In this document: one piece after another, positions 1,526-39,874 of the stretch
How positions within the stretch are numbered: the stretch's first letter is position 1
Layout of the letters: each line of letters begins with the position of its first letter
Assembly (NCBI GenBank): GCA_020723285.1
Contig: DYJE01000009.1
Location: 62,001-126,000 of the forward strand
Origin: Desulforapulum autotrophicum
Lineage (GTDB): Bacteria > Desulfobacterota > Desulfobacteria > Desulfobacterales > Desulfolunaceae
Direction of reading: 5' to 3'
Length of the DNA stretch: 64,000 bases
Translations under genes and position numbers: made by a program
Notes under the pieces: generated by a model
Databases searched by the model: none
What the model saw: only the letters and a program-made list of their open reading frames with translations
What the model was told of the DNA's origin: nothing

Positions 1526-2521
1526 ATGGTGAAAGGGTTTAAATGGGCGGCCATCATCGCGGTTCTCGCTGTTTGTGCCGACATCCTGGTCACTTTCGTA
1601 TATCCCGATGTCTCCTTGTTGAAGAAACACAACCCCCGGACCACGGCGTTTATGGAGTACAGGAAAAAACAGTGGGCCGAAGAGGGGCTCTCCAAAACCA
1701 TCGACCATAGGTGGGTCCGGCTGAAACGCGTGTCACCGTATCTGGTGAAGGCGGTGATCATTGGCGAGGACGACAAGTTCTGGAAACACGAGGGGTTTGA
1801 TTTCGACGCCATGAAAAAAGCCCTGGAAAAAGACATTGCCGAGGGGAAGCTTAAAGCCGGGGGCTCGTCCATCAGCCAGCAGCTGGCAAAAAACCTGTAC
1901 CTTTCCCCGTCGAAAAATCCTTTGCGGAAAATCAAGGAAGCGATTCTCACCTGGAGGATCGAAAAGGCCCTTTCAAAAAAACGGATCATGGAGATCTACA
2001 TCAACGTGGCGGAATGGGGTGACGGCGTTTTCGGCATCGAGGCCGCCGCCCGGCACCATTATGGAAAGCGGGCCAGAAACCTCAGCGCCCAGGAAGCGGT
2101 GCGCCTGGCCAGCGTGCTGCCCAACCCCATCGTGTTCGACCCCAAGAGCACCACGGGTTATGTGAAAAAACGGTCCAGGGCCATTTACCGGGTCATGCGC
2201 AGGCGGGGCATCGTGATCCCCGAATACGAAGAGGTGATGAACGCCCCTGAGGAAAAGACCGAGGAGATGCCTGTTGATATCCTGGGGCTGGGTCTTGAGG
2301 GGGAAAGCGTTCCCGAGACGACAGATTCCTTTGAAACAGGGGAAACGTCAGAACCGTCTGCCGTCACGCCCTCCGGGGAAAACACAGTCATGGACGAAAA
2401 GTCGGCCCAGCCCGACCCGTCGCATGTCGAACCGGCCGAAAACCCGGAATCGCCTTCCGGGACGGATCAAGCTTCACCGCCACAGGAAGGCGCGGCAGCC
2501 GATAAACCGGTCGGAGAATAA
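1526..2521 (+). CDS. mtgA: Monofunctional biosynthetic peptidoglycan transglycosylase MtgA (331 aa)
   Basis: A glycosyltransferase-51 protein that polymerises lipid II into glycan strands in the periplasm. An N-terminal membrane anchor spans residues 8-24. Family signatures follow in order: EDDKFWKHEG at 81-90 with catalytic Glu81, GGSSISQQLAKNL at 112-124, RKIKEAILTWRIEKALSK, and IYINVAEWGDGVFGIEAAA. No transpeptidase domain follows, so it is monofunctional. At 331 residues it is about 90 longer than E. coli MtgA. The extra C-terminal part (about 240-331) is low-complexity and rich in Glu, Pro, Ser and Thr, probably disordered in the periplasm. It is an isolated plus-strand gene converging on glpX. 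Confidence 0.95.
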   Translation: MVKGFKWAAIIAVLAVCADILVTFVYPDVSLLKKHNPRTTAFMEYRKKQWAEEGLSKTIDHRWVRLKRVSPYLVKAVIIGEDDKFWKHEGFDFDAMKKALEKDIAEGKLKAGGSSISQQLAKNLYLSPSKNPLRKIKEAILTWRIEKALSKKRIMEIYINVAEWGDGVFGIEAAARHHYGKRARNLSAQEAVRLASVLPNPIVFDPKSTTGYVKKRSRAIYRVMRRRGIVIPEYEEVMNAPEEKTEEMPVDILGLGLEGESVPETTDSFETGETSEPSAVTPSGENTVMDEKSAQPDPSHVEPAENPESPSGTDQASPPQEGAAADKPVGE

Positions 2522-2623
2522 AAGGTTCCCGGCAACTGAAAGAATGTTTTGTGGACGGCCTCAACATCCCTGTGGCCATGGGATATTCATGACCCACTTC
2601 AACGCGCACCGACCCTGTGTTTT

Positions 2624-3592
2624 TTACCTGAGATCCCGGTGTTCGTCATTCACATGGTATGACTCGATGAACCGGATGGTTCTTGTCTTTCCGTTCAGCA
2701 CCAGGGAATGGGAATAGGCGCCTTTGGCGTGGTATTTGACACCTTTCAAAAAGGTCCCGCCGGAAATGCCGGTGGCGGCGAAGAACACGTCGCTGCTTTT
2801 CACCAGGGTTTCCACGGTGAACACCTGGGAGAGATCGGCCCCGTGGGCAAGAACGGCGTTTCGTTCGGCGTCGCTCTGGGGATCGAGGCGGGCGTACATC
2901 TGGCCGCCCAGGGCGCGGATGGCGCAGGCTGAAAGGACGCCTTCGGGGGTTCCGCCGGTTCCCATCATCACGTCCACGTCGGCCCTTGGGCTCACAGCCA
3001 TGAGGGAGCCGGCCACATCGCCGTCGGTGTGCATCTGGATGCAGGCCCCGGTTTTCCTTATGTCTTCGATCAGCTGCTTGTGGCGGGGTTTGTCAAGAAC
3101 GAACACCACCAGTTCATCCACGTTTTTTCCAAGGGCCCTGGCGATGTGGCGGAGGTTGTCCTCAACCGGGGCGTCGATATCCACCACGTTCCGGGCTTCC
3201 TGGGGCACCACGATTTTTTTCATGTAGAAGCTGGGGCCGGGGTCGTGCATGGTTCCGGCGGGGCTCGCCCCCACCACGGCAATGGCGTTGGGGCGGCCCA
3301 GGGCCAGGAGGTTGGTTCCTTCCACCGGGTCGATGGCCAGATCAAGGGCCAGGCCTTTCCCGCTGCCCACCCGTTCACCGTTGTACAGCATGGGGGCATT
3401 GTCCTTTTCCCCTTCACCGATGATCACGGTGCCGTCGATGTCGATGGCTGAAAAACCACGGCGCATGGCGTCCACCGCCGCGCCGTCGCCTTCTTCCTTT
3501 TTCCCTTTGCCCAGAAATTTTCCGGCGGCCAGGGCCGCTGTTTCGGTGACCCGCACCAGATTCAGGGCCAGGTTTCTAAAATGCTGTTCCAT
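2624..3592 (-). CDS. glpX: Class II fructose-1,6-bisphosphatase GlpX (322 aa)
   Basis: Hydrolyses fructose-1,6-bisphosphate to fructose-6-phosphate in gluconeogenesis. GlpX signatures are clear: GEGEKDNAPMLYNGE, the metal-binding DPVEGTNLLALG, ASPAGTMHDPG and GTGGTPEGVLSACAIRALGG. Length matches the family. Two candidate ATGs are six bases apart. The second (3592) is chosen because GGGGAG lies six bases upstream of it, whereas for the first (3598) the same sequence would abut the start codon. The 5' end overlaps the recX 3' end by 17 bases, so recX and glpX are likely co-transcribed. Together with gap and tpiA 18 kb away it points to a working gluconeogenic route. Confidence 0.95.
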   Translation of the reverse strand: MEQHFRNLALNLVRVTETAALAAGKFLGKGKKEEGDGAAVDAMRRGFSAIDIDGTVIIGEGEKDNAPMLYNGERVGSGKGLALDLAIDPVEGTNLLALGRPNAIAVVGASPAGTMHDPGPSFYMKKIVVPQEARNVVDIDAPVEDNLRHIARALGKNVDELVVFVLDKPRHKQLIEDIRKTGACIQMHTDGDVAGSLMAVSPRADVDVMMGTGGTPEGVLSACAIRALGGQMYARLDPQSDAERNAVLAHGADLSQVFTVETLVKSSDVFFAATGISGGTFLKGVKYHAKGAYSHSLVLNGKTRTIRFIESYHVNDEHRDLR

Positions 3593-4217
3593 CGTCATCT
3601 CCCCTTTGCATGGACAAAGCCCGGTCGGTGATTTCCCGTGTGGTTTCGTAGGAAAAACCCCGCTGGCTCAAAAATCCGTAAATTTTTTTTCGAAGGTCGT
3701 CCGGCGCAAGCTTTTGCCAGAGCCCCAGTTTTTTTTTCACGGCATCGAAGGCCGCGTTCGTTTCATCGTATCCGTCCAGATTTTCGTCGATCAGGTCTTC
3801 AGCCACCCCTTTTTCAAGGAGTTCCTGACGAAGGGCGTAAGACCCTTTGGGGTTCACCCGTTTCCGGCTTTCCACCCACATGTCCGTGAAATCCTTGTCG
3901 TTTAAAAACCTGTTTTCCATAAGCCGGGTCAGCGTTGCCGTCCGGCAGGACGGTGAAAATCGCTTGCCTTTGAGGTACCGCTCCATTTCCGCAAAGCTCC
4001 TGGCCCGGTAACCCAGATACCGAAGGGCCAGGTTGTACGCCCGTTCCAGCTCATCCTCCTCGGTGAGGCGGCGGACCGTGTCCTCGTCAATCTCCTGGCC
4101 TTCCACCAGCCGGGCGGCGATAAAGGGGCTTAAGGAAAAGGCGTAACTGTCGTCCAGATACACGCTGATCCGCTGTTTGTTTTTTTTCTGGACCATCAGG
4201 TCCGTGACGGTTTTCAC
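3576..4217 (-). CDS. recX: Regulatory protein RecX (213 aa)
   Basis: RecX binds within RecA filaments and limits their growth. The sequence shows the three-helix repeats of the family: RAYNLALRYLGYRARSFAEM early, then LTRLMENRFLNDKDFTDMWVES in the middle, then GSYALRQELLEKGVAEDLID. An N-terminal strand-rich part (residues 1-55) precedes them. The start at 4217 is GTG; an ATG eight codons in is possible. It lies six bases after trmO and overlaps glpX, so trmO-recX-glpX form a tight minus-strand group. recA itself is not in the window. Confidence 0.9.
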   Translation of the reverse strand: MKTVTDLMVQKKNKQRISVYLDDSYAFSLSPFIAARLVEGQEIDEDTVRRLTEEDELERAYNLALRYLGYRARSFAEMERYLKGKRFSPSCRTATLTRLMENRFLNDKDFTDMWVESRKRVNPKGSYALRQELLEKGVAEDLIDENLDGYDETNAAFDAVKKKLGLWQKLAPDDLRKKIYGFLSQRGFSYETTREITDRALSMQRGDDDGTAF

Positions 4218-26409: not shown

Positions 26410-29400
26410 TCACGGCATGGGTTCAAGCGCCAGCGTTCCCGTAACCCACTTCAGCGTCACCTGGGCCACCAGATATTCCCGGCGCGCTCTGGCCAGATTC
26501 CCACGGGCTTCTTTCAGCGCCAGCTGGGTATCCTGGACGTCCAGGTTTGTTTTCACGCCGTGGACAAATCCTTTTTCAGCCATGGCCACCAGACGTTCGG
26601 CCTGGGTGACGACGCCTTCCAGGGCTTTGAGGATCTCACCGGCTTCCTTGAGGGCGCTCAACGATTCTTCGGTCTGGAGACGGATCAGGTCTTTCAGTTT
26701 TTCCGCCTGAAGTTCCATGGTGGACAGATCACTGCGGCTCTGAGCCACTTTTCCCCGTGTCTTCATGCCGTCGAAAAAGGGGAAGGACATCACCACGGCG
26801 GCTTTGGACACTTCGCCGTCGGCCTTGTTCGTCTCAACATCGAGATGACGCCATCCGTAGGACCCCATAAGATCGATGCGGGGCTTGTCCATGGAGTTGT
26901 AAACGGTGATGGCCTCCTTCTGCATGCCGATCTTGTTTTTCAGCTCCAGGAGTTCGGGGCGGTTGGCAAGGGCTTTTTCAAGGGATTCGCCGGAATCGGG
27001 GACCTCCCCCGGTGCGGCATCAAGTTCCCCTTTGACATCAAAGGTTTTGCCTTCAAGGCAGATCAGCACCCCCAGCCGCTCTTTCGAGATGGTGATGAGG
27101 TTTTCCGTTCGAATGACGTCTGGCCGGGCGTTGGACACGGAAACATCGGCCGACAGGACATCGTAATCCGTGGCCGTTCCTGCGGCGAATTTCCGTTTTG
27201 CTTCGTCCAGGTGACGCTGCTTCTGGTCCAGGTTGGAAACGGCGATGTCATGGAGCTCCCGGGCGAGAAGGGCGTCGTAGAACGCCGCGCTCACGTCTCT
27301 GGCCACAGCCTGACGGTGAAGGTTCATTTCGTCGTCGGCTGTTTTGAGGCCGATTTTCGCCGCCCGGATGGCCGCTCCGATCTGGCCCCAGGTGAACAGG
27401 GGCTGGGACACGGTCAACTCACCGCCGTAGTATTTCTGGGTGGTTGGAATCATGGGGGAAATGGCCGTCTGGGTTTCGTCGGTGCTTCGACCCATGGACG
27501 CCCCAAGGCTCAGTTTGGGCAGGGCCGCTGAACGTTCTTCCACATACCGTCCTTCCACCAGAGCACGGTAGGCCACCGCCATCTTGATGTCCTTGTTCTG
27601 GTCTGCCGCCAGTTTCAGGGCATCCTGAAGGCTGAGGATTCTTCCTTCTTCGGCTTTGACAGAGCCAGGAGAAAGAAAAAGGGCTGCGGCGGCAATCAGC
27701 ACAATCAGGGTGTGGACTGTACCATGTCCCCCGTTGTCCGAATCCCATTTTTTCCGGAGCCAGCCGCCAAAGTCGTCCAACAGCGTGTAAACCACGGGCA
27801 CCACCAGAAGGGTGAGCAGGGTGGAGGTGATCAGGCCGCCGATGACGGCCCGGCCCATGGGGGCACGCATTTCTGCACCCGCACCCAGGCCCAGGGCCAG
27901 GGGCAGCATGCCGAAGATCATGGCAAGGGTGGTCATCATGATGGGTCTGAGCCGTGTCCGCCCTGCGGTGATGACGGCGGTGCGGCGGTCCATGCCTTCG
28001 CCCCTCAGGATTTTCGTGTAGTCCACAAGAAGGATGGCGTTTTTCGTCACAAGCCCCATGAGCATGATGAGGCCGATGAGGGACATGATGTTCACAGCGT
28101 CACCGGTGACTTTCAGCATGGCCGCCATGCCCACCAGGGACAGGGGCAGGGAGAACATGATCGAAAAGGGCTCGATGAACGATTCGAACTGGGCCGCGAG
28201 GATCAGGTACACGAAAATGACGGCCATGAGCAGGGCTTCAGCCATGTACATGAACGATTCCACCATGTCTTCGGCTTCTCCTGAAAACACCAGCTGGTAA
28301 CCGGCGTCCATGGAAAGACCGTCCGCGATGGCCTTGATTTCCTTCATGGCCGTTCCCATGTCCAGATTTTCCGCAAGGTTTGTTGAAATTTTCACTTCAC
28401 GGATCAGGTCCCTCCGGTTGATTTCGGAAGGGGTGGCACCGATTTCGTAATCCACCAGATTCCCCAGCTGGATCAGGGCCGAACCGGTCTGGTTTCTCAC
28501 GGACAGTCTGAGCCGTTCCACCTGGGCCGGATCCTGGCGCAGGTCCTCGGGCAGGCGGACGCGCACGTCCACGGCGTCTCCGTCCTCGTCTTCGTAAGTT
28601 GTCGACGCTTCACCGCCCACCAGGGCACCCACGGTCCTTACAATGGCTCCGGTGTTGACCCCGGCGTCCATGGCCCGTTCCCGGTTGACCAGCAGCCGGT
28701 ATTCCGGCGTGTCGTCTTCCATGGACACTTCCAGGTCGATGATGCCGTCGATTTTGTACATCTCGTTTTTGATCAGCGCCCCGTAATGCTTCAGCCGGTC
28801 GATGTTTTCACCCCGGACACTGAACTCGATTTTTTTGGTGCCGTGCAGACGCCCCACTTCCACAATGGCGGGGACGATTCCGGGAATATCCTGGAGTTTT
28901 TTCCTCACCGCCGTTTCGATCTGGCGCTGGGATCTCAGGCGTTCGTTTTTCTCCTTGAGTTTCACGTAGACATGGCCGTCACGCACCGTCCCCGAGTCGC
29001 CGGAGCCGATGGTGGAATAGGTGTGCTGGATTTCCGGGAATTCCTTGAGCATTGCGAGGATCGCTTCCACACGTTTTTTCGTTTCGTTGACAGAGGCATC
29101 CGGCGCTGTTTTAAGGTCGATCTGGAATTCGGACCGGTCGTATGTCTGCATGAACGAGGACGGCAGGGTCGCGAAGATGGCGAGGCCGCAGAAAAAGACA
29201 GCGGTGGCCAGAACCACGATGGTGATCCGGTGATCCAGGGCCCAGGCGATGATGCCTTTGTAGCGGTCCGCTGTCCGGTCGAACCAGTCGTTGAACACGT
29301 CCAGCATCCGGGCGATGAAATGCCGTTTGCCCTTGCGCTCGATGTCCGGGTCCACCCATCGGGACGACAGCATGGGGTCCAGAGTGAAGGACACCAGGAG

Positions 29401-30819
29401 GGACACGAGGACGGCGAAGGTCACCGTGATGCCGAACTGGAAGAAGAAACGGCCGACGATGCCTTTCATATAAGCCACAGGCACGAACACCGCCACGATG
29501 GAAAAGGTGGTGGCCAGAACCGCGAGGCCGATTTCGCTGGTGCCGTCACGGGCCGCCTTGAAATGGTCCTTGCCCATTTCAAGATGGCGCACGATGTTTT
29601 CCCGGACCACGATGGCATCGTCGATGAGCATCCCGATGGCGAGAGACAGGGCCATAAGGGTCATGACGTTCAATGTCATGCCCATGAAGTTCATCACGAT
29701 GAACGAGGAAATGACGGAAATGGGGAGGGTCAAGCCTGTGATCACCGTGCTTCGCCAGGAATTCAAGAACAGGAACACGATGAGGATGGTGAGGACTCCG
29801 CCCTCGATCATGGTTTTCTGAACGTCGTGAACCGAATCCCGGATCATGATGGAGCCGTCCCGGACCACAGTCATGGTGACGCCCTCGGGCAGGTCCTGCT
29901 GGATTTTTCCCACGATTTTTTTCACCGAATCCACCACGTCCACAGTGTTGGCCCCGGACTGTTTCAGGATGTCCAGACCCACGGCCGGAACTCCGTTCAC
30001 CAGGGCCACGGTGCGCTGTTCCTCGATGCTGTCTTTCACGTCCGCCACTTCGTCAAGGGTGATGGGGCGGCTGTCTTTTTCGCCGATGACCATGGTTTTG
30101 AACTGCTCCACCATGTCCGGCTTGCCCGACACCCGCAAGGGGTATTCCGAATCCCCGCGCTTCAGTCGCCCCAGGGGCGTGTTGACGTTTTCACTCTGGA
30201 GACCGCCGATGACCTGGTCCACGCCCATGCCCAGGGATTCCAGTTTGGCCGGGTTGATGTCCACGGCCACTTCACGTTTCAGAAGGCCCACCAGGTTGAC
30301 CTTACCCACGCCGGAGATGCTTTCGATGCGGCGTTTGACCTTTTTTTCCACCAGGGTGGACAGTTCCCTGGGCGGCATGGTGTCGGACCTGACCGCCAGG
30401 GAGACAATGGGCATGTTGGCGAAATCCAGTTTCTGGATGATGGGTTCGTCAATGGCTTTGGGAAGATCCCCGCGGATGCCGCTGACTTTGGCCCGCACAT
30501 CCTGGGCCGCGTCGTCCACCCGGACTTCCAGGCGGAACTCCACCACCACGGTGGACACGCTTTCACGGGAAATGGACATGACGTGCTTGACGCCGGAAAT
30601 GGGGTTCACCGCTTCTTCGATGCGCTTGGTGACTTCGCGCTCCACAGTTTCAGGGGAGGCCCCCTCGTAAACCGTGACGATGGACACCACGGGGATTTCA
30701 ACATCGGGGTACATGTCCACGGACAGGCGGCGGTAGGAGAAAAGACCCAGAGCCACCAGGGTCAGCATCATCACGGTGGCGAGAACAGGACGCTTGATGG
30801 AAAGATCGGAAAGGAACAT
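26410..30819 (-). CDS. RND efflux pump fused to a TolC-family outer membrane channel (1469 aa)
   Basis: Residues 1 to about 1030 are a complete HAE1-type RND transporter: N-terminal KRPVLATVMMLTLVALGLFS, paired Asp in GMLIDDAIVVREN (proton relay), and the final helices ending VVPVVYTLLDDFGGWLRKKW. A hydrophobic stretch at 1037-1056 (TLIVLIAAAALFLSPGSVKA) looks like a signal peptide with a VKA cleavage site. Residues 1057-1469 are a TolC-type outer membrane factor (LSLQDALKLAADQN, then TVSQPLFTWGQIGAAIRAAK, then AQVTLKWVTGTL). No stop separates them. Cleavage inside the chain would release both parts. The adaptor gene lies 3 bases upstream. Exported substrate is unknown. Confidence 0.88.
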   Translation of the reverse strand: MFLSDLSIKRPVLATVMMLTLVALGLFSYRRLSVDMYPDVEIPVVSIVTVYEGASPETVEREVTKRIEEAVNPISGVKHVMSISRESVSTVVVEFRLEVRVDDAAQDVRAKVSGIRGDLPKAIDEPIIQKLDFANMPIVSLAVRSDTMPPRELSTLVEKKVKRRIESISGVGKVNLVGLLKREVAVDINPAKLESLGMGVDQVIGGLQSENVNTPLGRLKRGDSEYPLRVSGKPDMVEQFKTMVIGEKDSRPITLDEVADVKDSIEEQRTVALVNGVPAVGLDILKQSGANTVDVVDSVKKIVGKIQQDLPEGVTMTVVRDGSIMIRDSVHDVQKTMIEGGVLTILIVFLFLNSWRSTVITGLTLPISVISSFIVMNFMGMTLNVMTLMALSLAIGMLIDDAIVVRENIVRHLEMGKDHFKAARDGTSEIGLAVLATTFSIVAVFVPVAYMKGIVGRFFFQFGITVTFAVLVSLLVSFTLDPMLSSRWVDPDIERKGKRHFIARMLDVFNDWFDRTADRYKGIIAWALDHRITIVVLATAVFFCGLAIFATLPSSFMQTYDRSEFQIDLKTAPDASVNETKKRVEAILAMLKEFPEIQHTYSTIGSGDSGTVRDGHVYVKLKEKNERLRSQRQIETAVRKKLQDIPGIVPAIVEVGRLHGTKKIEFSVRGENIDRLKHYGALIKNEMYKIDGIIDLEVSMEDDTPEYRLLVNRERAMDAGVNTGAIVRTVGALVGGEASTTYEDEDGDAVDVRVRLPEDLRQDPAQVERLRLSVRNQTGSALIQLGNLVDYEIGATPSEINRRDLIREVKISTNLAENLDMGTAMKEIKAIADGLSMDAGYQLVFSGEAEDMVESFMYMAEALLMAVIFVYLILAAQFESFIEPFSIMFSLPLSLVGMAAMLKVTGDAVNIMSLIGLIMLMGLVTKNAILLVDYTKILRGEGMDRRTAVITAGRTRLRPIMMTTLAMIFGMLPLALGLGAGAEMRAPMGRAVIGGLITSTLLTLLVVPVVYTLLDDFGGWLRKKWDSDNGGHGTVHTLIVLIAAAALFLSPGSVKAEEGRILSLQDALKLAADQNKDIKMAVAYRALVEGRYVEERSAALPKLSLGASMGRSTDETQTAISPMIPTTQKYYGGELTVSQPLFTWGQIGAAIRAAKIGLKTADDEMNLHRQAVARDVSAAFYDALLARELHDIAVSNLDQKQRHLDEAKRKFAAGTATDYDVLSADVSVSNARPDVIRTENLITISKERLGVLICLEGKTFDVKGELDAAPGEVPDSGESLEKALANRPELLELKNKIGMQKEAITVYNSMDKPRIDLMGSYGWRHLDVETNKADGEVSKAAVVMSFPFFDGMKTRGKVAQSRSDLSTMELQAEKLKDLIRLQTEESLSALKEAGEILKALEGVVTQAERLVAMAEKGFVHGVKTNLDVQDTQLALKEARGNLARARREYLVAQVTLKWVTGTLALEPMP

Positions 30820-30822
30820 GGG

Positions 30823-31974
30823 TTATTGACCCCCGTTCTTACGGACTTTGTCACCTTCCTTGATGTTGAAGCCTCCCCGGAGGATGATTTCGTCTCCGGG
30901 TTTGAGTCCTGAGGGGATCTCCACGTTGTCCGCCTGGACCAGCCCCACATTCACGTTTTTCTTCCGTGCCACCCCGTTGTCCGCAAGGAGGATTTCCGCC
31001 TGTTTTTTCTCCACATTCCAGTTGACCAGGGCGTTTCTGGGAACCTGGATCACCTGATCGCGGTGACCGGTGACGATCTGGCCCTTGACGAAAAGTCCGC
31101 CTTTAAGGGTTTCCGAATCGTTACGGACTTCGGCGATAACTTTCACCGACCGGTCGCCTTCACTGACCACGGGGTTGATGTATTTGAGTTTGCCTGAAAA
31201 CGTCTTGCCGGGGAAGGCGTCGGTGGTGAACCGCAGTTCAAGGCCGGGTTTCAGGAAACGCATGAACCGCGACGGCACGGTGACGGTGAGATCCAGCGTG
31301 CGGTTGTCCACGATTTTAAAAAGGGGACGGTCCGTGGCCAGATCGCCCTGGTTGATTTTCCGTTCGGCCACCACACCGTCGATGGGCGAAGTGATCACGT
31401 TTTTCGAATACCGCAGTTTGGCCTGGGCCAGATCCTGCTGGGCCGTGGTCAGGCGCGCCACCACCGATGCTTTCCGGGCCAGAGCCGCGTCTTTTTCCGT
31501 TCCCGCCTCATCCACGCTCTGGGATGTGGCAAGACCCGATTCCTTCAGCTGAAGTACCCGATTGTATTCACGCTCCGCCCGGCTGACCGCCACGTTGGCC
31601 TGGAGCAGGTTGGCCTTTTCCATGTCCACCGCCGCTTTCGCCTTGTTCAGCATGGCCTGGGGTTCACGGGTGTCCAGGGACAGGAGGGGGTCGCCTTTTT
31701 TCACGCGCACCCATTCGCTCACATGAACGTCCCTCACCACTCCGCCGTACTCGGCTTTCACATCGGTCTGGATTTTGGGCGAAAGCGTTCCCACCACGTC
31801 CACGGTGTCCGCCATGGCTGAAAATTCAATAGTCATGGTTTCCACGGCCACAGGCGGTTTCGCAGATTTGGAAGGTTCGTTTCCGGCTTCTGTGGCCCGG
31901 TGCTTGAAAAGCATGAATCCGACGATGGTGATGCATGTCATGACGATGATGACGAACGGTTTTTTACTGCGCAT
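30823..31974 (-). CDS. RND efflux periplasmic adaptor subunit (383 aa)
   Basis: A membrane-fusion protein linking inner membrane pump and outer membrane channel. A single N-terminal anchor (VIIVMTCITIVGFMLF) is followed by a lipoyl half (DVKAEYGGVVRDVHVSEW), a long hairpin of Ala, Lys and Glu (about residues 95-165), the second lipoyl half (VITSPIDGVVAERKINQGDL) and barrel domains. ATG at 31974 has AGGGGA eight bases upstream; a TTG seven codons earlier is less likely. It is first in the two-gene efflux operon. Confidence 0.92.
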   Translation of the reverse strand: MRSKKPFVIIVMTCITIVGFMLFKHRATEAGNEPSKSAKPPVAVETMTIEFSAMADTVDVVGTLSPKIQTDVKAEYGGVVRDVHVSEWVRVKKGDPLLSLDTREPQAMLNKAKAAVDMEKANLLQANVAVSRAEREYNRVLQLKESGLATSQSVDEAGTEKDAALARKASVVARLTTAQQDLAQAKLRYSKNVITSPIDGVVAERKINQGDLATDRPLFKIVDNRTLDLTVTVPSRFMRFLKPGLELRFTTDAFPGKTFSGKLKYINPVVSEGDRSVKVIAEVRNDSETLKGGLFVKGQIVTGHRDQVIQVPRNALVNWNVEKKQAEILLADNGVARKKNVNVGLVQADNVEIPSGLKPGDEIILRGGFNIKEGDKVRKNGGQ

Positions 31975-32518
31975 GGTTGATTCCCCTGTTTTCAAAGCTC
32001 TTGATGCGAACGCGCCAAAGAACGCCGTTCATGATTTCGGTTGAAATGAACGGCGTCAGCCCAATTCCGGAAGGATTCCGATGATTGAAATCTTTTCACT
32101 CTTAACATTTAAGTATGTCCCTTGAAATCGATGGGTCATAATATGAATGAATGTTCGTATTGTCAAATCAAATCATCTGGATTTTGTGTCCGTGGATAGG
32201 GGTAAGACGAATAAACGGTAAGGTTTCTTTTGTTTATGACATAAATTGTAAAAGACCGTTTGCCACACAGGTGGGAATGGTGGCTGACGACTACCGCAGG
32301 GTCCGCTATGACTCAAACCCAAAACCGCTAAGGGAAACTCAATCCACTATCTGTATTCATATTTCCATCTGGTCGTTTACGCGATTTTTTTGACCCGATT
32401 CATTATTTTATCAGGAAAAGAATTTTCGAATACTGGAGCTGGATACGTTAGGGAAAGACGAATCCCAGAGATTCACCGATGAGAGGGCGAAATATGTTTT
32501 GTGAGGCTGTACTGACAT
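31975..32518. other. Intergenic region upstream of the efflux operon
   Basis: About 540 bases holding the efflux promoter and palindrome (32138-32166). The remainder (32170-32518) shows no coding frame with a ribosome-binding site, no RNA gene and no repeat that I could identify. Confidence 0.6.
32138..32166 (-). promoter_or_regulatory. Sigma-70-type promoter with operator-like palindrome
   Basis: On the minus strand TTGACA (32166-32161) and TATTAT (32143-32138) are separated by exactly 17 bases. The spacer is covered by the inverted repeat AATATGAA-tgaatg-TTCGTATT (32140-32161, one mismatch), the kind of site TetR-type repressors use on efflux genes. It would drive the adaptor and RND-TolC genes with a leader of about 155 bases. 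No repressor gene is adjacent. Confidence 0.65.
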
Positions 32519-34952: not shown

Positions 34953-37900
34953 TCAGAACAGACTGAGCTGAACCGGCTTTTTCTGCTTGTCCAGGTTTGA
35001 GAAACCGGACACTTCAAAGCGCAGAAGCTTACGGTCGATGTCTTCGATGAAGGGGGACATGTCGGCGGGGGCTGTTTTTCCGAAGCGTGTCCTTGTTTTT
35101 GAAAAGGAAAGAAAAAGAAAATCCCTGGCCCGGGTCATGGCCACGTAAAACAGGCGGCGCTCTTCGTCAGGGTCGTCGCAGTGGATACCGTCCCGGGCAT
35201 AGGGGATCATGCCCTTTTCACAACCCGCCACAAATACCACCTTGAATTCCAGGCCTTTGGCTGCGTGCATGGTCATGACGGTCACGGTTTCGGCGTTGAA
35301 ATCGTAAAGATCCTGATCTTCGGCCATGTGAAGGGTTTTAAGAAAATCCGCCGTGTCGGTTCCAAAGGGCCTGGCCATGGAGAGCAGGTGTTGAAATGAC
35401 TCCCGGTATTTTTTACCCTCCAGCGTTTTTTCAAGTTCCGGCAAACCTTTCACCATGTGCCGGATCTGCCGGGTGACGGAAAGGGGACGGAGGTCTTCGG
35501 CTTTCAAGGGCATCTCCGGGGTCTCGGCGTTCAGATATTTTTTGAGCATACGGTGGTCAAGGGACGACAAAGGCCAGCCGCTGGCTGTTTTCAGCAGGGC
35601 GGCCACGGCGGCAATGGGCGGATGGGACAGAAAACTCTCGCGGTTCGCATGGCGGCATGGGATTCCGCCCTTGTCCAGCATCTCCGCGATCAGCCTGCCC
35701 TGGGCTGCGGTTCGGGTGAGGATGGCGAAATCGGAAAAACTCAAGGTTTCATCGCCGAGCATATTCCGGGTATGAAAATCCAGGGAGTGGAAACCGGTGC
35801 CGCCCATCATCTGCTCGATGCGTTTTCCCATGGCCACGGCCTCCGCTTTTTCGGAAGGGTTTTCAAGGACCGTGATGGACGCCCGCTCCTCGATGCCGGA
35901 CCAGAGCCTGCCCCGGGGCATTCCACCGGGATTGGGCTGAGGCTCCATCATCCGGCTTGAAGCGGAAAGGATGTTCTCGGCGGATCGGTAGTTCTGGGTG
36001 AGCCGGATCACCTGGGCTTCGGGGTAATCGGTTTGAAACCGGTTGAAATATCGGCTGTCCGAGCCTCTGAAACCGTAAATGGCCTGGTCCGGATCGCCGA
36101 TGACGCAGATGTCCGAAGATCCGGTCGACAGGGCGCGGATCAGGCGGTACTGGGCGAAATTCAGATCCTGGTATTCGTCGACGAACACGTAAGGGAAACG
36201 CCGCTGAACCCTGTCCCGTTCATCCGGGTCCGATTCCAGCCGTAAGACCGCGAGGAAAATCAGATCATCGAAATCCAGAAGGCGTTCCTCGGTGAGGAGT
36301 CTCTGGTAATGGCCGTAAACGCTTGAGAACCTACCGGTTTCCGCATCAGTCAGGCCGGGCAGGGCTGACAGGTCGTCACAGGGGCCCAGGATGTTCTGTT
36401 TGGCGGTTTCGATGAGATTCGCCGTTTTTCTGATCAGGGATTTCACCGCTTTTTCCCCTGTGGCTTCAAGGGCTTTTCGGATCAGGTCGTCCTTAAGGCT
36501 GTCGTCCGCCAGGGAAAAATCCGTCATGTTTTCCGCCGTCGCCTGCAACAGGCCGTGGCAGAACCCGTGGATGGTGCTGGCTTTGGGGAGCTGCGCCACA
36601 CCGGGAAGTTTTTGTTTCAACCGCTCTTTCATCTCGGACGCGGCCCGGGTGGTGAAGGTGATGGCCAGGATCTGGACCGGTTTCGCCTTTTTATCTTCGA
36701 TGAGACGGACAATCCGCCGGGTGAGGGTGTGGGTTTTGCCTGTTCCGGGACCGGCCACGATGATAAGGGGCCCTCTCTCATGGTTTACGGCCTTTTCCTG
36801 AAGGGGGTTTAGGGCGCCGGTTACTTTTCGGGAATGGGCACAGGCTTTGGGAGCCGCCTGGGGAACGATGCCCCGGCCTTTGACGGTGCCCGCTTTGATG
36901 TAGCCTTCCCTTGCCAAATCCGGGTCCAGGAAGGAAAACATCATGTTTTGCCCCAGCAGCTCTTCCTTTTCGTCTTCGGTGAAAATCTTGATGACCCCGA
37001 ATTCCCCGTCGTATCCGGGCTGGATATGGAGGGCATGGTTCCTGATCCGCTGAATGGCTTCGGAAAGGAGCGGGATTTTTGCGGTATCGATGTCGGATAG
37101 CGGCATGTCGGTCAGAATGGCAAGCTCGGGTCCCAGCCGGGCGAGGGCCGTGTCCCGGAGTTCTTTCACCCGTTTGCTCTGGGGGCCGCATCCCGTGATT
37201 TCGGCCAGCACTTCATCGAAAGGGATGATGCTCCGGTACGGGTGATGCACGGCGGGTTTCTCGCCTTCCGGCCGGTCCGCCAGCTGGAGAACCCGGTAAT
37301 TGACACCCAGGGTGAGGGGATTGCCGCATTCGGGGCATAGCCCCTTGGCCCGGACCGACTGGTCGGGACTCAGGTTGACCTGGCATTTCCGGTGCCCGTC
37401 GTGGTGGTATTTGCCTTCTTCGGGGAAAAATTCAAGCGTCCCCAGAAAGTCCTGGGACCCCTTGTTTTTCAGGGCGGATTTCATGGCCGCGTAAGACAGG
37501 GCTGTGTCGAAGAGGTTGGCTTCCCGCCCCAGCTTGGCCGGGGAATGGGCGTCGGAATTGGACACCAGGGTTAGCCGGTCCAGGAAGGACACCCGGTGGT
37601 TCATGGGCGGGTCCGAGGACAGGCCGGTTTCCACGGCGAAAATTTCCGGGCTTAAATCCCCGAAGCATTCGGCAAGGGTGTCGAAGCCGGACCGCGAACC
37701 CAGCAGGGAAAACCAGGGCGTCCAGATGTGGGCGGGAATCATGAAGGCCCGGTCGTCGGTTTCCAAAAGAATTTCAAGGAGGTTCCGGGCGTCAAGCCCC
37801 AGGATCGGCCGTCCGTCCGAGGCGATGTTTCCGATGGCGGCCAGTTTCAGGTTGAACCGTTCCGCCGAGTCGAAGTCCGCGAAATACACCAGGTTGTGGT

Positions 37901-38219
37901 TTTTCCGGGTACGGCCGTCTTTTTTGTAAATGGAGCTGATTTCCGAAGACAGGATGAAACGCACGTCACCCCGGCATGAGGGGGGAAGCTGCGATTCGAG
38001 CCGGGTTTCAATGTCCGGTTTCAGCCGGAACAGTCCGTCCTCGGCTTCGACGAGTTTTTCCTTCAGTTCACGAAACCACAAAGGATGGGTGGAATCCCCG
38101 GTGGAAAGAACGGTGATGCCTTTTTTTCGCGCCTCCACGAACAGGTTTTCAAGGTCCAGGTTTTTGGCCGTGGCCCGTGAATATTTGGAATGGATGTGAA
38201 GATCCGCGATGTATGTCAT
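34953..38219 (-). CDS. Endonuclease Q-like PHP domain fused to UvrD/Rep helicase (1088 aa)
   Basis: Residues 1 to about 420 resemble endonuclease Q, which nicks DNA 5' of deaminated bases. PHP metal motifs are DLHIHSKYS (6-14), a His in PAHIWTPWFS (162-171) and NSDAHS (221-226). Zinc-type Cys residues are at 279, 295 and 298 (CPECGNPLTLGV). Residues about 465-1088 are a superfamily 1 helicase: AGPGTGKTHTLT (489-500), VFVDEYQDL, GDPDQAIYGFRGSD, LTQNYRS, then MHAAKGLEFKVVF and LFYVAMTRA. The single chain suggests coupled lesion nicking and unwinding. It is a single gene, and its 3' end abuts the EamA gene. Confidence 0.85.
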   Translation of the reverse strand: MTYIADLHIHSKYSRATAKNLDLENLFVEARKKGITVLSTGDSTHPLWFRELKEKLVEAEDGLFRLKPDIETRLESQLPPSCRGDVRFILSSEISSIYKKDGRTRKNHNLVYFADFDSAERFNLKLAAIGNIASDGRPILGLDARNLLEILLETDDRAFMIPAHIWTPWFSLLGSRSGFDTLAECFGDLSPEIFAVETGLSSDPPMNHRVSFLDRLTLVSNSDAHSPAKLGREANLFDTALSYAAMKSALKNKGSQDFLGTLEFFPEEGKYHHDGHRKCQVNLSPDQSVRAKGLCPECGNPLTLGVNYRVLQLADRPEGEKPAVHHPYRSIIPFDEVLAEITGCGPQSKRVKELRDTALARLGPELAILTDMPLSDIDTAKIPLLSEAIQRIRNHALHIQPGYDGEFGVIKIFTEDEKEELLGQNMMFSFLDPDLAREGYIKAGTVKGRGIVPQAAPKACAHSRKVTGALNPLQEKAVNHERGPLIIVAGPGTGKTHTLTRRIVRLIEDKKAKPVQILAITFTTRAASEMKERLKQKLPGVAQLPKASTIHGFCHGLLQATAENMTDFSLADDSLKDDLIRKALEATGEKAVKSLIRKTANLIETAKQNILGPCDDLSALPGLTDAETGRFSSVYGHYQRLLTEERLLDFDDLIFLAVLRLESDPDERDRVQRRFPYVFVDEYQDLNFAQYRLIRALSTGSSDICVIGDPDQAIYGFRGSDSRYFNRFQTDYPEAQVIRLTQNYRSAENILSASSRMMEPQPNPGGMPRGRLWSGIEERASITVLENPSEKAEAVAMGKRIEQMMGGTGFHSLDFHTRNMLGDETLSFSDFAILTRTAAQGRLIAEMLDKGGIPCRHANRESFLSHPPIAAVAALLKTASGWPLSSLDHRMLKKYLNAETPEMPLKAEDLRPLSVTRQIRHMVKGLPELEKTLEGKKYRESFQHLLSMARPFGTDTADFLKTLHMAEDQDLYDFNAETVTVMTMHAAKGLEFKVVFVAGCEKGMIPYARDGIHCDDPDEERRLFYVAMTRARDFLFLSFSKTRTRFGKTAPADMSPFIEDIDRKLLRFEVSGFSNLDKQKKPVQLSLF

Positions 38220-38353
38220 GGTTTCCTTTGATCCGTTTCAGATTTGTTCAATCGTGTTCAATCCTGATTGATTCAACGTTTTAAAACCATGACCGGGTCA
38301 AGTCAACATCAAAGGAAAAAAGTCGGCGAAGTGCATCTTTCTGGGGTGGGTCA

Positions 38354-38717
38354 GGCCTCCGGCGGCCCTTCCGGGGCACTGCCGTCAGGCTTAAGGCAAT
38401 CATCAGTTTTTTTGCCCCAACGGGGCATTATCATAAAAGCCCAGGGTTGCGGTGAAAGCCGCTACCCTGGGATATTTCCGATGATGATATTCAACGCCAA
38501 CGGGGTTGCGTATCATAACCATGAATCGTCTATATACGGACACAACCCCTTTGGGGTTGAGGTGGTTTACCGGCGAACCCAGGGTTGCGGCGTTGCCGCA
38601 ACCCTGGGCTATGATACGAAATCCCGTTGGGATTCGATACAGCCCGTAGGATGGGCAAAGTCGAAAACGTGCCCATCTCTTAAGTCAACAGCAATGCCCG
38701 GCAGGCCGCCGGAGGCC
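38354..38717. repeat. Palindromic repeat cluster with 14-bp inverted ends
   Basis: GGCCTCCGGCGGCC at 38354-38367 is the inverse of GGCCGCCGGAGGCC at 38704-38717. Between them are several palindromes: CCAGGGTTGCGG near 38440, a strong GGGTTGCGG / CCGCAACCC hairpin near 38582-38608, CAACCCCTTTGGGGTTG near 38543, and a GATGGGCA / TGCCCATC pair near 38650-38677. It looks like a REP- or MITE-like intergenic element, not a gene; the long open frame across it has no protein features. Confidence 0.65.
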
Positions 38718-38734
38718 AAGAAAACAAATCACGA

Positions 38735-39874
38735 TTAAAGCATTTCGATAAACGCCTGGATGCGGACCCTCAACTGTTCGGTGTCCGAATCGGAGTAATC
38801 GGTTTCAAGGTGGAGCATGGGCAGACCGTGGGCGTCTTTCAGATGTTTTTCCACGCTGAAGGATTCCACGTTGTAGGTGTGGCAGGCCTGCCAGGTGAGG
38901 TCCACCACGCCGTCCACCTTGAAATCCCGGATCATGCGGTCAAGAAGCTCCAGCCGTCCGGTGTTGGGGCTCATCACCGAGCAGGGAATGGACAGGTACT
39001 GGCGGGCCAGGACGTCCAGGCGGTCGCCTTCCTTTTCCACGGTGAACACCTGCTTGTACCCGGTGCAGTTTTCAAAACCCACCACGCTTGCGCCGCTTTC
39101 TTCAAGGATCTTGGCCACCTTGTCCGATCCCACGCCCATGGGCACCCCGGAAATGAGGATTCTGGGGGTTTTCGCGGTGTAGGGGCTTTCGCCATTTTCA
39201 GCAAGGGCTTTGTAGTGGTCGACCATGGTGTTCATCAAGCCGATGCCTTTTTCCTTGTCCGCCAGGAAACCCACTTTGAACAGGATGTTGATCAGCTCAC
39301 TGCCTTTGATGGGCGAGGGCTTGATCTGGGCGAGATCCATCACGGCTTTTTTGGCGTCGCGCTCGCGGTTGAGAAGGTCGATGGCCGCGTCGATGCGTTC
39401 GGTGGTGATTTCAACGCCGGTCACCGCCTCGATTTCCTCTTTCATGATCCGCACTTCGTCGAGCCAGGGCGCGAGGGATTTTTCCACATTCTGGTTCTGG
39501 GGAAGCTGAAGGACGTGGACCTTCTTGTACTGTTGCATCAGCTCGAACATCTTCTTTTTTCCGTCGCAGGTGGTGTCTGCCACGATCATGTCGGAAAAGC
39601 GGAAAAAAGGACAGGTGTTCAGGGCCGCGAAGCCGTAACTGCTTTTGATCAGCGGACAGAGGTTCCGGGGAAGCACCTCTTCGGCGGCGGCCACGGGATC
39701 GTTTTTCGTGCCGCACAGGGGAAGGGGAATGGCACCGGCTGCCACGATGAGTTCCACGGGGGAGTAGAGGCAGTAACAGCCGATGGCTTTGCGTCCGTCC
39801 TTTTTATAATTCTCGATGTCGATGACGTTCTGTTCGAACGCCTGCTGCAATGTGTTCATCAGATCCTGGCTCAT
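38735..39874 (-). CDS. Double-cubane-cluster reductase, YjiM-like (379 aa)
   Basis: It belongs to the 2-hydroxyacyl-CoA dehydratase D-component family, the YjiM branch. Conserved cysteine blocks match that branch: LPRNLCPLIKSSYGF, NTCPFFRFSDM, ADTTCDGKKKM, GFENCTGYKQ, WQACHTYNVES, and the ending ETDYSDSDTEQL. Relatives carry two linked 4Fe4S clusters and reduce small molecules, such as acetylene in vitro, using electrons from an ATP-dependent activator. The physiological substrate is unknown. ATG at 39874 is chosen; the long open extension upstream is in the activase gene. It lies 5 bases after the activase. Confidence 0.85.
   Translation of the reverse strand: MSQDLMNTLQQAFEQNVIDIENYKKDGRKAIGCYCLYSPVELIVAAGAIPLPLCGTKNDPVAAAEEVLPRNLCPLIKSSYGFAALNTCPFFRFSDMIVADTTCDGKKKMFELMQQYKKVHVLQLPQNQNVEKSLAPWLDEVRIMKEEIEAVTGVEITTERIDAAIDLLNRERDAKKAVMDLAQIKPSPIKGSELINILFKVGFLADKEKGIGLMNTMVDHYKALAENGESPYTAKTPRILISGVPMGVGSDKVAKILEESGASVVGFENCTGYKQVFTVEKEGDRLDVLARQYLSIPCSVMSPNTGRLELLDRMIRDFKVDGVVDLTWQACHTYNVESFSVEKHLKDAHGLPMLHLETDYSDSDTEQLRVRIQAFIEML

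Follow-up and report, generated by a model that had tools for sequence, protein, structure and literature searches.

An endonuclease Q-like nuclease fused to a UvrD-like helicase, with a beta-clamp-type tail, in Desulforapulum autotrophicum

The window analyzed here, a 64,000-nucleotide stretch of a Desulforapulum autotrophicum contig, encodes a protein in which an endonuclease Q (EndoQ)-like nuclease is joined to a UvrD-like superfamily 1 helicase, and whose C-terminal end is QLSLF, a motif of the beta-clamp-binding type. The reading that we favor, with fair but far from complete confidence, is that the protein is anchored on the clamp and repairs deaminated bases and AP sites by nicking the DNA and unwinding it; nicking by the window protein, the direction of unwinding, clamp binding, and the downstream steps would all follow from its anatomy and from the genes with which it is associated.

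Architecture and genomic setting of the fusion gene

The features of the gene and its product, all on the minus strand, are as follows (window coordinates).

34953..38219 (-), whole EndoQ-helicase fusion gene; 1088 aa, intact open frame, ATG start
36948..38219 (-), EndoQ part, residues 1-424; by sequence match, residue check, and fold match
37326..37394 (-), zinc site H276, C279, C295, C298; by alignment
36936..36950 (-), internal QNMMF, residues 424-428; stands where stand-alone EndoQs have their C-terminal clamp-type motif
36822..36947 (-), linker, residues 425-466; predicted disordered
35001..36821 (-), UvrD-like SF1 helicase, residues 467-1073; by Pfam, motifs, and fold
36732..36755 (-), Walker A AGPGTGKT, residues 489-496; by alignment
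36165..36179 (-), motif II DEYQD, residues 681-685; by alignment
34956..35000 (-), disordered tail, residues 1074-1088; by structure prediction
34956..34970 (-), QLSLF, residues 1084-1088, beta-clamp-binding-type motif; by motif pattern and conservation

The predicted structure (mean pLDDT 86.3, pTM 0.59) has two confident bodies, with the linker and the tail at pLDDT < 50, and its fold listing is populated by helicases and EndoQ. The pTM value leaves open the mutual arrangement of the two domains in the model. The fusion gene meets a convergent EamA transporter gene stop against stop, and it also lies beside genes for 2-hydroxyacyl-CoA dehydratase. Across 99 loci we found no widely shared neighbor genes; the commonest neighbor family is present in 14 of them, mostly in related Desulfobacula-type genomes.

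Two other observations were made in the window. Upstream of the gene, at 38220-38735, several short palindromic or repeated stretches can be seen by eye, of the type GCAACCC...GGGTTGC and CCCCGTTGGGGC. Farther away, a single 1469-aa open frame at 26410-30819 (-) contains an AcrB-type RND pump (PF00873, 4-1014) and then an outer-membrane efflux domain (PF02321, best stretch 1278-1457), with a membrane-fusion protein gene upstream of it at 30823-31995; either pump and TolC are fused in the long frame, or two genes run together with no stop in between.

The nuclease part has the fold and the residues of EndoQ

Residues 5-418 match Pyrococcus furiosus EndoQ (5zb8) with E = 5.6e-53, and the model of residues 1-424 superimposes on 5zb8_B by VIA-align with Z 46.7 and rmsd 2.8 over 388 aligned residues, an EndoQ fold over the whole length. 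A first-pass annotation, made from the letters alone, had proposed an EndoQ-like nuclease fused to a UvrD/Rep helicase, with comparison of a predicted structure to known EndoQ as a check and absence of the EndoQ-specific residues as a possible refutation; the identification is borne out on both counts. In Pfu numbering, H8, H10, E76, H84, H139, G169, S171, D193, and H195 are invariant in 64/64 fused rows, the window protein included, and likewise in all 32 stand-alone bacterial rows. They comprise the catalytic residues E76, H84, and H139 together with H8, H10, D193, and H195, and the base pocket formed by H139, G169, and S171; in the window protein the metal and catalytic residues are H8, H10, E93, H108, H164, D223, and H225, with G199 and S201 in the base pocket. 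The catalytic and pocket residues were taken from the accessible part of PMC8307549, with H8, H10, D193, and H195 added, and according to that source loss of E76, H84, or H139 abolishes activity. The EndoQ part probably nicks DNA beside deaminated bases.

The first-pass annotation described a PHP metal site and a Cys-rich part. No PHP model scores above cut-off in a Pfam scan of the window protein (PHP_C E = 0.081), so that the PHP assignment is based on alignment with EndoQ and on the fold. The zinc site does not read as four cysteines: it is His-Cys-Cys-Cys in all 96 bacterial rows (64 fused, 32 stand-alone), whereas the first ligand is Cys in Pyrococcus. Histidine is able to hold zinc. Compared with P. 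furiosus EndoQ (5zb8, 7k30-7k33), the window protein agrees in fold, PHP metal site, base pocket, and zinc-site place, but it differs in the ligand set, in having a helicase after the EndoQ core, and in that the conserved clamp-type motif stands after the helicase.

The NCBIfam model TIGR00375 matches residues 5-410 at 147.8 bits, below its curated cut-off of 326.6 bits, and by score the window protein falls outside that label. None of the 297 genomes of the window's phylum reaches the cut-off, versus 2 of 14 control genomes, yet 194 of the 297 match the model. The view that EndoQ is mainly archaeal and present in few bacteria, from which the first-pass annotation started, does not survive this count as far as the window's phylum is concerned.

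The helicase part belongs to a distinct UvrD-like subfamily

Residues 465-1067 match UvrD-family helicases, and Pfam assigns the region to PF00580 (E = 1.6e-71) and PF13361 (E = 7e-41). The SF1A motifs I, Ia, II, III, IV, V, and VI are all present, as had been read from the sequence at first pass, and K495, T496, D681, E682, Q684, R718, R745, K988, and R1030 are invariant in 64/64 fused rows. By VIA-align, residues 467-1073 match Deinococcus UvrD with Z 47.5. Helicases of the UvrD type have 3'-5' polarity.

The motifs and fold are shared with UvrD, PcrA, and Rep, but sequence comparison places the fusion helicase in a subfamily distinct from canonical UvrD, and it has a clamp-type end. A branch with support of 100 splits 81 fused and solo helicase rows from 14 canonical UvrD rows (14 of the 35 canonical rows were used, and seven solos were dropped). 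In a larger set, 36 non-fused, UvrD-type rows form one side of a branch with support of 96 and the fused rows and tested solos lie outside it; with midpoint rooting, the solos L112 and L198 come out nearer the canonical rows than the fused ones, and several long rows could not be placed (L121, L128, L199, and L202). The fused rows L024, L067, and L068, in which the Walker pattern was not found, were left out of the helicase trees. Two candidate peculiarities were considered and rejected. A shortened 2B domain as an activating change is not supported, the model aligning to UvrD across 467-1073; the 2B region is 79 to 173 residues long in 63/64 rows and 12 in the remaining one. A 'GG' loop is no subfamily signature, being present in 8/14 canonical rows and undecided in many.

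A clamp-type motif ends the chain and a second lies between the domains

The beta-clamp-binding consensus is a QL[SD]LF-type peptide. The window protein carries such a peptide, QLSLF, in its disordered terminus, a feature that the first-pass annotation did not mention. Using a strict pattern, Q[LM]x[LMI][FLIM] inside the last 12 residues, we found the motif in 65/68 complete fused homologues (11 of 79 fused rows, incomplete or broken, were set aside) versus 1/431 other open reading frames of the same loci, these controls being mechanically called frames and not all genes. Fifteen of 20 further fused proteins and 18/32 stand-alone EndoQs also have it, and the relaxed pattern QxxLF is found near the end of 30/32 stand-alone EndoQs. 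Binding of QLSLF to the beta clamp would accord with this pattern of conservation.

A QxxLF-type motif is also present inside the chain, at the matching place in 39/94 fused rows (one genome, G213, was entered twice among the 94) and at an identical offset in 35 of them, compared with a mean of 3.8 and a maximum of 11 in 300 shuffles. It reads QNMMF in the window protein and is lost in the rows of genome family f49. The internal QNMMF is likely a fusion relic or a second clamp motif. Because stand-alone EndoQs end in the motif and the inner motif is retained in some fused rows, the fusion seems to have arisen from two genes that each had a clamp tag, with the end tag kept and the inner tag decaying; two clamp-type motifs, as in the window protein, are what such a joining leads one to expect.

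Clamp motifs in bacterial EndoQ were already known in 2016: the available text of PMC4858679 describes binding of archaeal EndoQ to PCNA by its C-terminus and C-terminal beta-clamp motifs in bacterial homologues. The present analysis adds that such a tag also stands behind the helicase and is conserved there. The window protein shares a C-terminal sliding-clamp tag with the archaeal EndoQ-PCNA partnership, but its tag ends a fusion, and the word helicase is absent from that text.

Distribution and origin of the fusion

The fusion is not a matter of chance, because 154 of the 168 candidate stretches in the genome collection encode a relative. The best 80 of the 168 carry titles of about ten phyla. 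Some come from isolates (Frankia, Goodfellowiella, Chitinophaga, Fodinibius, and Geminisphaera among them), and many of the rest from MAGs. Open frames of the TIGR00375 matches listed for the window's phylum fall into two size classes, roughly 410-515 and 870-1270 residues. A Bacteroidota sample of 148 genomes yields nine with a match, the chosen center among them, and all nine frames are of 1004-1163 residues.

In trees of the EndoQ part, the fused rows form a single clade within the stand-alone rows (support of 99 with 64 fused rows, and of 96 with 94, the set in which G213 is entered twice). When operon forms are included, the EndoQs of G125, G160, G071, G135, and G185 are placed next to the fused clade and L132 is unplaced, while that of locus L244 (genome G186) falls inside it. 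At L244 the EndoQ and helicase genes (387-1829 and 1833-3623) are four bases apart, and judging from the tree a fused gene probably split later to give this pair. Three fused homologues (L057, L062, and L078) read as two overlapping frames and are either frameshifted genes or assembly errors. No description of an EndoQ-helicase fusion was found in the literature searched, although the 2015 EndoQ paper refers to Desulfovibrio homologues, and its domain drawings of them may show it.

The helicase accompanies EndoQ as a fused, adjacent, or separate gene

Stand-alone bacterial EndoQs, for which members of the phylum were compared, agree with the window protein in all of the checked residues and, in 30/32, in having a QxxLF-type C-terminal motif; they differ in that their chain has no helicase, and at least 33 genomes have a separate helicase gene. 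Six genomes (G125, G160, G071, G135, G185, and G186) have adjacent split EndoQ and helicase genes. A clamp-type motif ends both genes in five of these pairs; in G186 the helicase alone has one, a near-variant. A profile built from four solo helicase copies was searched against the 297 genomes, a solo being a match that reaches model position 542 or beyond in a frame of fewer than 800 residues. Among the matches listed, 34 genomes have such a full-length match in a separate frame; one candidate (G234), whose gene runs off a contig end and whose tail is that of a fused relative, was set aside. All of the remaining 33 have an EndoQ match, versus 194/297 in the phylum (EndoQ frame lengths are not listed for G142 and G100). 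The Fisher p value is 3e-7, or 2e-6 without the four profile-seed genomes, over 13 genome families, and is too small, since genomes within one family are not independent. The relaxed motif ends 33/36 complete solo helicases and near-variants end the other three, versus 1/35 canonical UvrD-like proteins of the phylum.

Nuclease and helicase are not always found together. Just one stand-alone EndoQ out of the phylum's best 30 has the helicase next door (about 1.5 kb either side), and many EndoQ genomes, such as those of family f17, show no such helicase among the matches listed, so that EndoQ does not need it. Nonetheless, cooperation of nuclease and helicase gains independent support from the occurrence of one helicase subfamily in fused, adjacent, and separate arrangements. 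The teaming proposed in the first-pass annotation is strengthened in this respect.

Uracil glycosylases and the alternative double cut

The window's genome has two UDG-superfamily matches and one ExoIII, so the fusion gene is no substitute for UDG or ExoIII there. It has no EndoV match, and therefore the published EndoQ plus EndoV double cut is not open there. A survey for missing Ung partners, as had been suggested, has a mixed outcome. Among the genomes of fused loci picked from the best 80, 36/42 have UDG. In family f49 (G040, G076, G109, G138, G165, G190, G213, G235, G256, and G277), by contrast, 10/10 genomes carry one ExoIII and a fused frame, 1087-1298 residues in length, with UDG-superfamily matches in 0/10 and EndoV matches in 0/10; the survey covers UDG-superfamily matches, as distinct from HhH-type uracil glycosylases. 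A second EndoQ match in these genomes is an N-terminal piece of the same frame. The f49 EndoQ rows group with Mailhella (Desulfovibrionaceae; support of 98), of which three of four genomes have no UDG match and one has a weak match. General replacement of UDG by EndoQ was rejected for the phylum, the pattern holding for f49 only: EndoQ is present in 13/32 UDG-less genomes, which are partly incomplete assemblies, versus 181/265 UDG-bearing ones (p = 0.003), opposite to compensation.

A model for nick-and-unwind repair and its alternatives

The available text of PMC4357722 reports that EndoQ leaves a 5'-phosphate and a 3'-OH beside the lesion; the sources, as far as accessible, also describe an active EndoQ of B. 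pumilus and one EndoQ plus EndoV model in which a helicase step is drawn. In the model that we favor, the EndoQ part would flip out a deaminated base (uracil or hypoxanthine) or an AP site and make its cut immediately on the 5' side; one end would then be a 3'-OH and the other a 5'-phosphate end with the lesion. The tethered UvrD-like motor, moving 3'-5' on the strand that it holds, would load at the nick, the intact strand being the simplest choice, and displace the lesion-bearing strand, the step missing from EndoQ models. A polymerase would then extend the 3'-OH, a flap nuclease or exonuclease remove the displaced strand, and a ligase seal the nick. The need for these enzymes makes the 'self-contained repair route' of the first-pass annotation too strong a term. 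Through binding of the terminal QLSLF to the beta sliding clamp, the enzyme may be recruited to DNA that is freshly replicated or primed for repair, much as the PIP box recruits archaeal EndoQ through PCNA; the nick-and-unwind step would then take place beside a polymerase.

The same parts could be arranged in other ways. A clamp-bound motor traveling with or behind the fork might feed DNA to EndoQ, so that misincorporated dU in the new strand is nicked and the nicked strand unwound in the manner of mismatch repair; such nicks might in addition label the newly made strand. We regard such replication-coupled surveillance as rather unlikely: the clamp-type tail and the cutting of single-stranded DNA with U or Hx by EndoQ (PMC11354406, as accessible) suit it, but post-replicative repair fits the same anatomy. 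Comparably improbable is a fusion that is architectural only, in which EndoQ nicks alone and the helicase serves, for example, fork or transcription conflicts through a common clamp tether. The flexible linker, the existence of stand-alone EndoQs without a helicase, and the faster evolution of the helicase part (the EndoQ part is nearer the window protein in 63/63 homologues, with medians of 56% versus 37%) would be expected of it; the restriction of solo helicases to EndoQ genomes among the matches listed, with six adjacent pairs, argues otherwise. A role in defense against phages or plasmids whose DNA is modified or rich in uracil is very improbable. RTasHel and GajB models match the helicase core, and an antiviral role of Bacillus EndoQ is raised as a possibility in one review (PMC8307549, as accessible), but the model matches are limited to the core, as expected of any UvrD relative, 50,697 phage and 72,556 plasmid records contain no EndoQ-like protein, neighbor genes are not widely shared, and occurrence in 194/297 genomes is the prevalence of a housekeeping gene. 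GajA is absent from the five window proteins scanned around the gene.

Beyond clamp-anchored nick-and-unwind repair by the fusion itself, a wider extrapolation is tentative and, on balance, doubtful: that there is a general, glycosylase-free bacterial excision route on the replication clamp, in which the helicase is a dedicated EndoQ partner, whether fused, adjacent, or in trans, in which two clamp motifs might occupy the two pockets of the clamp dimer, with nuclease and motor on one ring, and in which the f49 fusion has replaced uracil-DNA glycosylase and EndoV.

Published EndoQ models require strand displacement or a second cut, and a chain of nuclease, motor, and clamp tag offers a concrete, testable answer. 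EndoQ is widespread in one bacterial phylum, where it goes unlabeled by an NCBIfam model whose cut-off is missed. Bacteria of the f49 type, with no detectable UDG but with the fusion, would provide a clean genetic test of glycosylase-free uracil repair, and the recurrence of the same nuclease and helicase pair as neighboring or separate genes elsewhere points to a poorly known bacterial DNA repair route.
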